Positions 9,863 to 13,833 of a DNA stretch of 64,000 nucleotides are shown here, in pieces. The stretch lies in NCBI RefSeq assembly GCF_017792025.1, contig NZ_CP046956.1:496001-560000 (forward strand), given 5' to 3'. The DNA is from Sediminibacillus dalangtanensis. GTDB taxonomy: Bacteria > Bacillota > Bacilli > Bacillales > Amphibacillaceae. The notes below the pieces were generated by a model that worked only from the letters and a program-made list of their open reading frames with translations, did no database searches and was not told where the DNA came from. Position 1 is the first letter of the stretch; every line of letters starts with the position of its first letter. The position numbers were made by a program, and so were the translations under genes.

Positions 9863-10009
9863 TCACTTTTTTGTGGTTCTCTCTTTTATCCTGCTGTTGG
9901 TATGGAGAAAGCTGCGAACTTCCTCTGGGGTCATTCCAAGTCCTTTGGCGTTGATGATCAGTTGCATCCATTCCTGGTCCAGAACATCTTGTTCATTCTT
10001 TTTTCTCAT
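9863..10009 (-). CDS. sinI: SinI-type antirepressor of SinR
   Basis: A 48-residue protein that I translated directly. LDQEWMQLIINAKGLGMTPE, then EVRSFLHTN, matches the SinI interaction domain (B. subtilis: LDQEWVELMVEAKEANISPE). SinI heterodimerises with SinR through this helical hairpin and frees matrix genes from repression. The ATG at 10009 overlaps the sinR stop as ATGA, so translation is probably coupled and follows sinR. In B. subtilis the order is sinI then sinR with separate promoters; here it is reversed. The matching hook appears in the SinR C-terminus (LDKEWEGLFKKAIEEGMSKD). Confidence 0.93.
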   Translation of the reverse strand: MRKKNEQDVLDQEWMQLIINAKGLGMTPEEVRSFLHTNSRIKERTTKK

Positions 10010-10377
10010 TGTTTTCCCCCGTTATGGATATTTTCTTTTCCATCCAGCCAGTTCTTGAATTTTACATATTCCATGAGGTCACGAAAGTCATCTTTGCTCA
10101 TGCCTTCCTCGATTGCTTTTTTAAAAAGTCCCTCCCATTCTTTATCCAGTTTGGGTGTTTCCGTATTCTTGTTATCCTCTGGCTGCTGGCCCAGCAGGTA
10201 ATCAATACTCGTATCAAGCGCTGTAGCAATCTTGGATAGTATTTGCAGGGACGGATTTTGTTGTATGTCACGCTCAATATAGCTTAAATAAGACTTTGAC
10301 ACACGTGCCGCCCTGGCAAGCTCTGTAATCGAGTACCCTTTCTTCTTCCTTTGGTTTCTAACCCGGTTACCAATCAT
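10006..10377 (-). CDS. sinR: SinR-type master repressor of biofilm genes
   Basis: A 123-residue repressor. The helix-turn-helix is at residues 1-65 (MIGNRVRNQRKKKGYSITEL, then VSKSYLSYIERDIQQNPSLQ), nearly superimposable on B. subtilis SinR. The C-terminal hook domain (EWEGLFKKAIEEGMSKDDFR, then DLMEYVKFKNWL) mediates tetramerisation and SinI binding. I start at the MIGNR methionine (10377) because it matches SinR, although an in-frame extension to 10455 is open and the site GGGAAGAAAG is only moderate. It is divergent from the TasA-type operon, with SinR boxes in between, so it probably represses that operon and possibly itself. Confidence 0.94.
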   Translation of the reverse strand: MIGNRVRNQRKKKGYSITELARAARVSKSYLSYIERDIQQNPSLQILSKIATALDTSIDYLLGQQPEDNKNTETPKLDKEWEGLFKKAIEEGMSKDDFRDLMEYVKFKNWLDGKENIHNGGKQ

Positions 10378-10404
10378 GGCTTTCTTCCCATCTTTGGTTG
10401 TAAT

Positions 10405-10465
10405 AAAGAACAGAGCACATGCATACGATGTTGTTTTGTTCATTATATAAAACAATACGTTCTAT
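10405..10465 (-). promoter_or_regulatory. SinR half-sites upstream of sinR
   Basis: AAAGAAC at 10405-10411 (GTTCTTT on the minus strand) and GTTCTAT at 10459-10465 match or approach the SinR heptamer GTTCTYT. They suggest autoregulation. Confidence 0.5.
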
Positions 10466-10595: not shown

Positions 10596-10611
10596 GTTCT
10601 TTAAAAAGAAC
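10596..10611. promoter_or_regulatory. SinR operator, two facing boxes
   Basis: GTTCTTTAAAAAGAAC is a perfect 16-bp palindrome made of two GTTCTTT heptamers in inverted orientation, the classic SinR arrangement. It lies about 100 bases upstream of the TasA-like start. Confidence 0.8.
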
Positions 10612-10712: not shown

Positions 10713-11336
10713 ATGAGCGTTAAAAAGAAATTAGGTATGGGAGTTATGTCGGCAGCGCTTGGGTTATCTTTGATCGGAGGAGGTACATATGCGTATTTCA
10801 ATGATACTGCTGAATCAAACAACACTTTCGCTGCAGGTACACTAGACCTTTCGGTAGATCCTGTGGAAATTTTTTCTGTAGATAATCTGAAGCCGGGAGA
10901 TTATATGCTTCGATCTTTTGAATTACAAAATGGGGGAACCTTGGATATTGCCAGAGTTCTAATGGACACTTCCTATACGGTAAACGATGCTGATGGCGAT
11001 AATGCTGGAGAGGATTTCGGGGAGCATTTGGTAGTTAAGTTCATCAAGAATGAAGGCCATCCAGAACATATCTTTGATGATGACGAGTACACAGTAGTCT
11101 ATCAAAAAACGTTAGCAGAACTTGCGGATATGACTCCAGACGATTTGGCTGTAGAGCTGGAGGACTTCTTGATATGGGATTATGAACAGGATGGAATTCC
11201 TGCAGGTGGAACAGACTACTTATCTGTGAAAATCGAATTCAACGATAATGGAGAAGATCAAAATAAATTCCAAGGCGATTCTCTTGATCTGACTTGGACC
11301 TTCACTGGCGAACAAGAAGCTGGCGAAAGAAGATAA
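10713..11336 (+). CDS. TasA/CalY-family extracellular fibre protein
   Basis: A 207-residue secreted protein. The signal peptide VMSAALGLSLIGGGTYAYF carries the TasA/CalY junction (GGGTYAYFND), which is processed by the SipW-type peptidase encoded two genes downstream. The mature part has a beta-rich TasA fold with family-typical TFAAGTLDLSV and LKPGDYMLRSFELQNGG. These proteins assemble into amyloid-like or donor-strand fibres in the biofilm matrix, and CalY is also called camelysin. An AGAGGAGGAG site precedes the ATG. It is the first gene of the operon. A perfect hairpin after it (11348) may set expression relative to tapA. The mature protein is strongly acidic, which fits a salt-adapted exoprotein. 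Confidence 0.93.
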   Translation: MSVKKKLGMGVMSAALGLSLIGGGTYAYFNDTAESNNTFAAGTLDLSVDPVEIFSVDNLKPGDYMLRSFELQNGGTLDIARVLMDTSYTVNDADGDNAGEDFGEHLVVKFIKNEGHPEHIFDDDEYTVVYQKTLAELADMTPDDLAVELEDFLIWDYEQDGIPAGGTDYLSVKIEFNDNGEDQNKFQGDSLDLTWTFTGEQEAGERR

Positions 11337-11347
11337 GCTGATTTTCT

Positions 11348-11374
11348 GGAAAGGTGAGGATCCCTCACCTTTCC
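11348..11374 (+). terminator. perfect intercistronic hairpin between the fibre gene and tapA
   Basis: GGAAAGGTGAGG pairs perfectly with CCTCACCTTTCC around a 3-base loop. Only a weak T-rich tail follows (ATCCTTATTCTTTCT), so it may be a partial terminator or an mRNA stabiliser rather than a complete stop. Confidence 0.6.
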
Positions 11375-11451
11375 ATCCTTATTCTTTCTCATCAATAGGC
11401 AACCAGCTTTGTATATTGATAAGAAAGAATAAATATTAGGGAGGCCCTCAC

Positions 11452-12357
11452 ATGCGAAGCACGCGTTTAGCAAAATATAAAAGAAAATACAAAAAAGCTG
11501 TGATAGCTTTGCAAATCCTGGCAATCTGGTATGCCGCCGTGTTCAGTGCTGCGTTGCTGACATCTCCGACTGGAGCGTACTTTAACGACTCTGCCGAAGC
11601 AATGACGAAAATTCCGGTTGGCGAGTGGGAGACGGATGAGTGGGATAAGAGTTCACTAGTTTTCCTTGGTGAAAAAGAACAAAAGGTGGAAGCGTGTGAA
11701 CCGGAAAAAATCAAGGTCAAGCTTAAAAACGGCGGAGAAGACATGAAGGTCACTTCTAGCTATGAAGTGTATTATGCAGCCGATGGAAATCCGAAAAAAG
11801 GAAAAAAACTGGAGCTGGAAACGGATGAAGGTACGATAAAGAAATTGAAAAGCGGTGAAGAAGTTGAGTTGACATTCTTGGCTGGGGAACCAGGAAATTA
11901 TAAATTCAAAGCTTATCAGGTTGAAGGACACCCGGGCAAAGGAGAACTTTGGAGCGAAACGATTACGATAGAATGCAAGAAATCGAATAAGACAAAAGCC
12001 GGTGAGAAAGAAAAGGTAGAGGAACAGCCTGCTGAAGAAGCTGAGGAAAAGGCAGAAGCAGAAGACAAGGCAACCGAAGAAAAAGACAGCAAACAGACCG
12101 AGGAAACCGAAAAAGAGGAACAAAAAGCTGAAGATAAAAAGCAGGAGTCTGACAAAGCAATCGATGAGAAACAGGAAGAATCGAAAGATAACCAGGAAGA
12201 ATCGGAACAAAAGCAACAAGATCAGCAAAAACAGTCTGAGGAAAAGCAGGTAAAAGCTGCGGACACCAAATCAGAATCTTCCGAAGGTCAGCAGGAGAAA
12301 GCGAAGGAACAGGAAAAATCGCTATCCAAAGAAAAGAGCGAGGGTGACAAGGAATGA
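11452..12357 (+). CDS. tapA: TapA-like fibre anchoring/assembly protein
   Basis: A 301-residue secreted protein. The N-terminal membrane segment (KAVIALQILAIWYAAVFSAA) is followed by the SipW-type junction TGAYFND. The folded domain to about residue 180 carries two cysteines and the TapA-like YKFKAYQVEGHPGKGELWSE (compare YAFKVYKPAGYP in B. subtilis TapA). The last 120 residues are a repetitive Glu/Lys/Gln tail (EEKAEAEDKATEE), longer than in the 253-residue B. subtilis protein and predicted to be disordered. TapA nucleates or anchors TasA fibres. The stop overlaps the sipW start as ATGA, indicating translational coupling. The well-spaced site is AGGGAGG. Confidence 0.87.
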   Translation: MRSTRLAKYKRKYKKAVIALQILAIWYAAVFSAALLTSPTGAYFNDSAEAMTKIPVGEWETDEWDKSSLVFLGEKEQKVEACEPEKIKVKLKNGGEDMKVTSSYEVYYAADGNPKKGKKLELETDEGTIKKLKSGEEVELTFLAGEPGNYKFKAYQVEGHPGKGELWSETITIECKKSNKTKAGEKEKVEEQPAEEAEEKAEAEDKATEEKDSKQTEETEKEEQKAEDKKQESDKAIDEKQEESKDNQEESEQKQQDQQKQSEEKQVKAADTKSESSEGQQEKAKEQEKSLSKEKSEGDKE

Positions 12358-12950
12358 AGAAAGGAATGAAATTAATTATGAGGTGGCTCAGCCGCCTCGT
12401 AACATTTACATTATTTGCGACACTCCTGTTTATGGTTTTTGTGGTCATTTCCTCGAAAGCATCCGGCGGCGAGCCGCAAGTGATGGGTTATCAGTTGAAA
12501 ACAGTCCTATCAGGTTCGATGGAGCCAGGAATCAAAACCGGTTCCATCATTGCGGTAAAACCAGGCGGCGATATGACACGTTTTGAAAAAGGCGATATCA
12601 TTACCTTTCAGACAGAAGAAGAGCTGCTGATCACCCATAGAATCGTCGATGTAACGACTAGCGGTGACAATGTTCTTTATGAAACAAAAGGAGATAATAA
12701 CGACGCTGCGGACAGAGAACCCGTTTTATCGCAAAACGTCATCGGTGAGTACACCGGATTCACGGTTCCTTATATCGGCTATTTTATAAGTTTTGCCCAG
12801 TCTAAAGAGGGAAGTGCATTGCTTTTGATCCTGCCGGGAGTTCTCCTGCTCGGCTACGCTGGGTTCACTATTTGGCAGACGATTTCCCAGCTTGATGCCA
12901 AAAGCAAAAAAGCAGCTGCGGCAAGTCAGGAAGAAACAACGGAGTCATAA
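12354..12950 (+). CDS. sipW: SipW-type (ER-type) signal peptidase I
   Basis: A 198-residue membrane peptidase. The N-terminal helix (residues 15-33) is followed by the catalytic box LSGSMEPGIKTGS, with Ser55 as nucleophile. The general base is histidine (THRIVD, H95) instead of the lysine of prokaryotic-type peptidases, which defines the S26B/SipW group. A C-terminal membrane helix (LLLILPGVLLLGYAGFTIW) and a charged tail follow. It removes the unusual signal peptides of TasA and TapA, both encoded just upstream. It overlaps tapA by 4 bases. Confidence 0.95.
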   Translation: MKKGMKLIMRWLSRLVTFTLFATLLFMVFVVISSKASGGEPQVMGYQLKTVLSGSMEPGIKTGSIIAVKPGGDMTRFEKGDIITFQTEEELLITHRIVDVTTSGDNVLYETKGDNNDAADREPVLSQNVIGEYTGFTVPYIGYFISFAQSKEGSALLLILPGVLLLGYAGFTIWQTISQLDAKSKKAAAASQEETTES

Positions 12951-12975
12951 TTGATGAAGATAGAGGGTGAGAAGG

Positions 12976-13650
12976 ATGAAAATTAAAGCCCGGCTTCTTT
13001 TTACGACGGCATGCGGTCTAGCAGTTTTTATCATGTTTTTTTCCACAGTCGGTTACCACAAATCGTTCGCCAGTAGTAACGAAATAGATATTGAAACCTT
13101 GCCAACAGACATCTTATTCGATGTGGACAATATGAAACCTGGTGACTGGGCGACGAGGACCTACACCATCCAAAACAAGGGTTCCCAGGATATGGACTAC
13201 TACCTTTCAGCCCAGTTTAAATCAGGATCAGAAAAACTGTATAAGGCCTTGAAGCTTCAGGTGAAAAATGGTGAAGAGTCTTTATACAGTGGAAGCCTTG
13301 CCGGTTTTACGGATTTGGAGAAAAGACTACTGGCTGTGAATGATCAGGAAGAATTGACATTCACCGTTGATTTTCCAGAAGAGCTTGGCAACGAATTTCA
13401 GGGACTAATCAGTGATTTTGCTATCATAGTTAGTGCGGAAGGATACCCGCCAGCTGGTGTTTCACCAGATACTGGATCAGACTCCAGCTCAGGTGAACCG
13501 GACGGTGCTACTCCAAGTGAGGGTAAAAGCCTGCCTGACACCGCAACGAATTTATTCAATCTATTGATTGCTGGTACAGCTTTATTCCTTACCGGAGCAG
13601 CCATTTATCTGTACAGCAGACGCAGCAGGAAAGACATAAAAATAAGTTAG
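12976..13650 (+). CDS. TasA-like surface protein with LPDTA sortase signal
   Basis: A 224-residue protein. A signal peptide (residues 5-30, ending HKSFAS) is followed by a TasA-like beta domain (ILFDVDNMKPGDWATRTYTI, then QNKGSQ) that resembles the LKPGD..SFELQNGG region of the fibre gene upstream. A Ser/Gly/Pro linker leads to LPDTA, a 20-residue hydrophobic stretch and RRSRK, a classic sorting signal. LPDT[AS] is the motif used by the B. subtilis YhcS/SrtD-type sortase. This would fix a TasA-domain protein to peptidoglycan, possibly as a fibre base. I start at ATG 12976, spaced 7 from GAGGGTG; the upstream GTG at 12967 is less likely. It is the last gene before two terminators. Confidence 0.88.
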   Translation: MKIKARLLFTTACGLAVFIMFFSTVGYHKSFASSNEIDIETLPTDILFDVDNMKPGDWATRTYTIQNKGSQDMDYYLSAQFKSGSEKLYKALKLQVKNGEESLYSGSLAGFTDLEKRLLAVNDQEELTFTVDFPEELGNEFQGLISDFAIIVSAEGYPPAGVSPDTGSDSSSGEPDGATPSEGKSLPDTATNLFNLLIAGTALFLTGAAIYLYSRRSRKDIKIS

Positions 13651-13699: not shown

Positions 13700-13732
13700 A
13701 AGAGACGTTCTTCAAAAAGAACGTCTCTTTTA
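13700..13732 (+). terminator. operon terminator 2 (matrix operon)
   Basis: AAGAGACGTTCTT pairs perfectly with AAGAACGTCTCTT around CAAA, followed by TT. It is in tandem with the preceding terminator. Confidence 0.75.
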
Positions 13733-13833
13733 AAAGGTGAAAATATAAAAGATCTAGGTCTAGCGTGATGCTGTCTAAGGTAAAAATCGCGGGGCGGGAC
13801 GCTTGCGCTTTTTTAACAGAAATGGGGAGTTGG

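Follow-up and report, generated by a model that had tools for sequence, protein, structure and literature searches.

In the stretch of Sediminibacillus dalangtanensis DNA analysed here, 64,000 nucleotides long and called the window below (positions 496001-560000 of a 4.1-Mb genome), the tasA-tapA-sipW operon closes with a gene, here named X, which encodes a TasA-like domain followed by a sortase sorting signal. X is probably a wall-linked, acceptor-only end subunit of the TasA donor-strand fibre, which caps the fibre and anchors it opposite its TapA end. The observations behind this interpretation are the domain, the sorting signal, the sortases of the genome, the gene linkage, and the loss of donor-side residues together with the retention of acceptor-side ones.

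The reading frame of X was verified; it stops at 13650 and starts with either GTG at 12967 or ATG at 12976, the latter lying 25 bases after the end of sipW. The operon genes and the parts of X are as follows.

10713..11336, + strand: tasA, major fibre subunit (PF12389, 275.4 bits; structure matches 8aur/5of1)
11452..12357, + strand: tapA (TIGR04087, 153.2 bits against a cut-off of 80)
12354..12950, + strand: sipW signal peptidase (NF046067, 298.7 bits against a cut-off of 190)
12976..13650, + strand: gene X, TasA-fold protein with a sortase signal, 224 amino acids in the ATG form (frame, profile matches, profile-profile alignment)
12976..13071, + strand: predicted general Sec signal peptide of X, ending in KSFA (sequence inspection, motif counts)
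13072..13449, + strand: TasA-like beta-sandwich domain of X, about 125 residues, beginning at about TasA residue 40 and without a donor strand (alignment, model)
13450..13530, + strand: Ser/Gly/Asp/Pro-rich linker of X, 27 residues (sequence)
13531..13647, + strand: LPDTATN sorting signal, hydrophobic stretch and RRSRK tail of X (NF058670, TIGR01167)

X is the final gene of the operon, since the next same-strand open reading frame (ORF) with a family match (DUF5658) starts only at 13765. A 13-bp inverted repeat at 13700-13729, seen by eye and unlisted by the terminator-like scan, lies ahead of that ORF. The closest protein match of X, from S. halophilus, is 90% identical.

Domain, sorting signal and interface residues

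The original prediction had read a TasA-like domain (LFDVDNMKPGD), an LPDTA motif, a hydrophobic stretch and RRSRK from the last gene of the operon, and all of these are present, the motif in the form LPDTATN. The sorting signal is of the class D type, scoring 47.1 bits with NF058670 (LPxTATN sorting signal, NCBIfam) against a cut-off of 32. With regard to the domain, PF12389 (TasA/camelysin) gave 32.3 bits against a gathering score of 22.5, as a partial match covering residues 21-77 of the GTG form, while the whole domain was aligned to a profile of 26 TasA proteins by hhalign (E 2.6e-18, probability 99), starting at TasA residue 40-41. A search of solved structures with the X sequence alone gave no relevant match, and with the X profile it gave TasA as a weak match (E 0.0022). 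The TapA profile TIGR04087 gave no match listed for X at E values up to 1. A chance occurrence of the motifs was ruled out by the profile scores above cut-offs and by the conserved gene linkage.

The comparison with TasA by structure prediction, suggested originally, yielded a model that is predicted to adopt the TasA beta-sandwich, with the TasA fibre as its best match. In this model, the N-terminal strand (residues 7-10, corresponding to about TasA 46-49) and the coil that follows appear to resemble the fibre form rather than the monomer, as these forms are described in the available text of PMC10151520.

According to the accessible part of PMC9674648, TasA fibres are extended through donated strands, each subunit completing the sandwich of the next with its residues 28-38. 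The available text of PMC10151520 describes a 'proline box' at this interface, made up of F29 of subunit n, Q232 of n+1, and F200 and P62 of n+2. It also presents TapA as a complete immunoglobulin (Ig) fold, a donor unable to accept, which is therefore located at the beginning of the filament.

A protein search with X gave 54 matches, the last one weak. For the family comparison, 118 loci were fetched, 38 from relatives and 80 others (the best 80 of 95). Removal of identical proteins and of the weak match L071 left 101 distinct loci, to which the first set contributed 37 and the second 64. The SipW/donor motif was found in 122 of 132 TasA proteins and in only two of the 101 X proteins, both of which look like chance matches; it is present in only 29 of 83 TapA proteins and so does not describe TapA. 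In the signal peptide of the X studied here, no SipW-type motif was found by inspection and motif counts. The residue equivalent to Q232 is a glutamine in 119 of 121 TasA proteins, which were selected for a PG[D/Q] motif, and in one X out of 100; glycine occupies this position in 70 X, including the present one. On the acceptor side, P62 is retained in 100/100 X (partly by selection), and the position of F200 is a phenylalanine in 82/100, the remainder having M, I, V or Y. Because KPGD and NEFQG were part of the patterns that retrieved the second set, the presence of P62 and NxFQG in it is a result of selection; within the first set only (n=37), P62 is found in 37, F200 in 27 and Q232 in one. 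By sequence, X appears to have kept the acceptor side and lost the donor side, the mirror case of TapA. A subunit that holds the pocket without the plug could only be the last one.

Conservation of the X family

The gene is not confined to this operon or genome. It lies directly 3' of sipW or tasA, on the same strand, at 93 of the 101 loci, and genes found near it include sipW (95 loci), tasA (94), tapA (82) and a SinR-like gene (68); a sortase gene is present within 4.5 kb at 49. The [LI]PxT signal is kept in 97 of the 101 proteins, and the residue after it is A in 65 of them, G in 23 and S in nine (one of these IPxTS), while four proteins are without a clear motif. The linker is usually short, with a median of 26 residues, at most 50 in 83 of 95 proteins and at most 15 in 25 of them. 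A tree of 100 X and 121 TasA proteins gave two groups without exception (support 0.987).

Among 299 genomes of the order, 89 have a strong X domain match and 62 have TapA above the cut-off; 53 of these 62 also have a strong X match (Fisher p 2e-25, a value that ignores ancestry). Seven of the nine TapA genomes without a strong X match come from one genus (f43/g88). The top four TapA scores are in this genus, which is probably the one of B. subtilis. The textbook B. subtilis tasA operon, which the original prediction had already set apart, has no X-type part.

In a phylum-wide sample, X domain matches with E values of 1e-10 or better were found in 26 of 249 genomes, namely the present one and 25 outside the order. 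The three extra-order X-like proteins examined (L187, L188 and L189) adjoin TasA-like genes and have neither a SipW-type signal nor a sortase tail. The capping domain may thus predate the wall anchor, consistent with X having served first as terminator and later as anchor.

A few loci differ in their make-up. L056:7850-10774 encodes a member of 974 amino acids in which a long extension and LPQTG come after an N-terminal X domain; a sortase gene outside class D follows. L057 (on a contig shared with L142) and L145 hold X, a class D sortase and SinR-type genes, with tasA, tapA and sipW unrecognised nearby.

Sortases and operon regulation

The search for a class D sortase, which had also been suggested, found two, SRT1 and SRT2, both of the LPxTATN type (NF058671, 239.8 and 214.7 bits against 140). 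The genome has three sortase matches in all, the third being a broken 71-amino-acid frame (L003:1501-1722) that was left unclassed; no pilus-type class C sortase was found among the three. Just upstream of the broken frame is a weak LPxTATN match (3646397, 27.6 bits, below cut-off).

SRT1 is the most likely cognate sortase of X. It lies at 2.92 Mb, paired with a SinR-type gene, and its pair has VanZ-like, LytR/CpsA/Psr-like and penicillin-binding protein genes as neighbours. Of the 41 loci that have the sortase divergent on the upstream side of the operon, 24, 27 and 30, respectively, contain matches to these three genes. The chromosomal position of SRT1 thus seems to be the same whether the operon is there or not. 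At 33 of the 49 loci holding X and an SRT1-type sortase, the sortase is divergent 5' of tasA, with a SinR-type gene next after X; at SRT1-type loci without X, the sortase and the SinR-type gene form a divergent pair in 12 of 15. These counts keep duplicates between the two sets, and the 15 X-less loci were hand-picked (four genomes of the same genus and others). No SinR-type site was found upstream of SRT1.

SRT2 was rejected as the likelier cognate, as it adjoins a phosphatase-like gene ending in LADTASS and falls outside the clade joining SRT1 to the sortases of X loci. This alkaline-phosphatase-like gene (L002:36-1229) directly precedes SRT2 (L002:1261-1905), and the two apparently form a separate sortase-substrate pair. 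A strong LPxTATN signal (3206984-3207079, L152; 50.7 bits) lies inside an open frame of 2022 codons, so that at least one substrate of a class D sortase in this genome is probably very large.

The type of signal follows the type of neighbouring sortase. Next to 42 class-D-like sortases, LPxT is followed by A in 30 cases, S in seven and G in five, whereas all seven other neighbour sortases go with G (p 9e-6 for the association, ignoring ancestry). These seven, linked to LPxTGE signals, form one branch of the sortase tree and may thus reflect a single switch. Four of them were scanned, and the best model was class C for three and class E for one, all below cut-off. In a set of 101 genomes, 11 have no sortase, and a strong X match is absent from all of these (Fisher p 0.006, ignoring ancestry); one of the 11, G057, shows a weak X match at a TasA-like frame.

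Three features bear on the regulation of the operon.

10006..10455, - strand: SinR/SlrR-like regulator, divergent from tasA (HTH_3 above cut-off; best model SlrR, below its cut-off)
10596..10611, no strand assigned: SinR-operator-like palindrome upstream of tasA, GTTCTTT-AA-AAAGAAC (sequence scan)
11347..11375, + strand: 13-pair hairpin between tasA and tapA, possible attenuator (terminator-like site scan)

The palindrome is perfect and lies 100 bases 5' of tasA; it resembles SinR operators. The hairpin, from a scan that found five sites against 3.2 expected in shuffles, could reduce tapA, sipW and X relative to tasA, which would fit minor subunits.

Proposed role, alternatives and related systems

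Based on these observations, we infer a covalent link of X to the wall, insertion of a strand into X, termination of the chain and a polarity of the fibre. X would be exported via the ordinary Sec route, and a class D sortase, most likely SRT1, would cleave LPDT|A and attach X to peptidoglycan. X would then take in the strand donated by the last TasA and have none to pass on, thereby stopping growth and tying the fibre to the wall. The opposite end would begin with TapA, which can donate a strand but has no acceptor groove. With so short a linker, the domain would be kept close to the side of the wall that faces the membrane, at the point where fibres exit the cell. The original proposal of wall anchoring and of a fibre base is supported by inference in this form.

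Three points temper this interpretation. TapA is not found above cut-off in 36 of the 89 genomes with X. The LPxTGE signals split completely by sortase (7/7 against 0/42), but this grouping was made after the data had been seen. In C. perfringens, a sortase gene next to sipW is dispensable for pellicle and polymer, according to the available text of PMC7395162.

An unlikely alternative is a role of X as a receptor or adhesin, anchored to the wall, which grips TasA fibres or the matrix sideways and forms no fibre end. The domain and the sorting signal alone would equally allow this, and a few members are long (974 amino acids in L056, 356 in L070). However, the retained residues belong to the end-to-end interface, and the very short linker of most members would serve an exposed adhesin poorly. 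Somewhat less probable still is a function chiefly in assembly control, as an end-cap, chaperone or length regulator, the wall link being secondary or locally lost. The tail-less proteins from outside the order and the four X without a clear motif are in line with it, whereas the near-universal [LI]PxT signal and the sortase genes close to about half of the X genes argue for anchoring. The suggestion that X might be a fibre subunit, in the sense of a shaft component tying fibres to the wall along their whole length, fits the fold and operon that it has in common with TasA; it is very improbable, as X has neither the donor strand nor the Q232 contact of an inner TasA and forms a clade apart from TasA. 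A sortase-polymerised pilin, suggested by the seven LPxTGE relatives next to sortases outside class D (three of the four scanned giving class C as best model, below cut-off), is the least probable, both intact sortases here being class D and X having a single folded domain and one signal.

Among known systems, the basal pilins of sortase pili are end subunits that tie a filament to the envelope, as proposed for X, but sortase pili are covalent polymers. FimB, the type V pilus anchor of Porphyromonas gingivalis, is compared with X in mode of action, since it too is a terminal subunit fastening a filament to the envelope (available text of PMC7616799); it comes from a Gram-negative system. With TasA/camelysin (CalY; PF12389; PDB 8aur, 5of1, 5of2), X shares the fold from residue 40, the KPGD and NxFQG motifs, P62, mostly F200, and the operon; in contrast, it has no SipW signal peptide, donor strand (28-38) or Q232, and carries a sortase signal. 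TapA of B. subtilis is likewise a minor gene of the operon, proposed to act at the fibre end and the cell surface, but it donates a strand as a complete Ig fold, according to the accessible part of PMC10151520, whereas X would only accept and has no TIGR04087 match. CapP of B. cereus (BC1280, DUF4047) is also an accessory protein that adjoins tasA and sipW and is partly wall-associated. The available text of PMC13082335 describes CapP as sortase-independent with a C-domain of repeats, in contrast to the TasA fold and LPxTA signal of X, and homology to CapP was ruled out, as X has no DUF4047 match. The class D sortase substrates YhcR and YfkN of B. subtilis and the LPXTA proteins of B. cellulosilyticus have the same LPxT[AS] signal; those described in the accessible parts of PMC3617157 and PMC12445088 are largely enzymes, whereas X is a fibre-family protein.

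The 'amyloid-type' label that had been given to the assembly is outdated, TasA fibres being donor-strand polymers in the available text of PMC9674648 and PMC10151520. The TasA fold and the class D sorting signal are each of a known kind; their combination in a conserved end-piece of TasA fibres appears undescribed in the open-access papers searched.

We tentatively extend the proposal to the TasA-type fibres of many Bacillales. These might have two complementary ends, a donor-only starter, TapA, and an acceptor-only terminator, X, bonded to the wall by a dedicated class D sortase. This would be a Gram-positive equivalent, built on donor strands, of the basal-subunit switch seen in covalent pili. 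TasA would be added at the base until X halts and fixes the fibre, leaving TapA at the tip or else on an adjacent cell, and B. subtilis would be without the anchor.

In B. subtilis, both the anchoring and the assembly of TasA fibres have been ascribed to TapA. For a considerable share of the Bacillales, a conserved TasA-like protein with a wall-sorting signal and only the acceptor half of the interface would offer a concrete account of how the fibres are attached and how their length is set. If true, it would join two assembly principles, donor-strand polymerisation and sortase anchoring, and B. subtilis may be atypical of its order in this respect.
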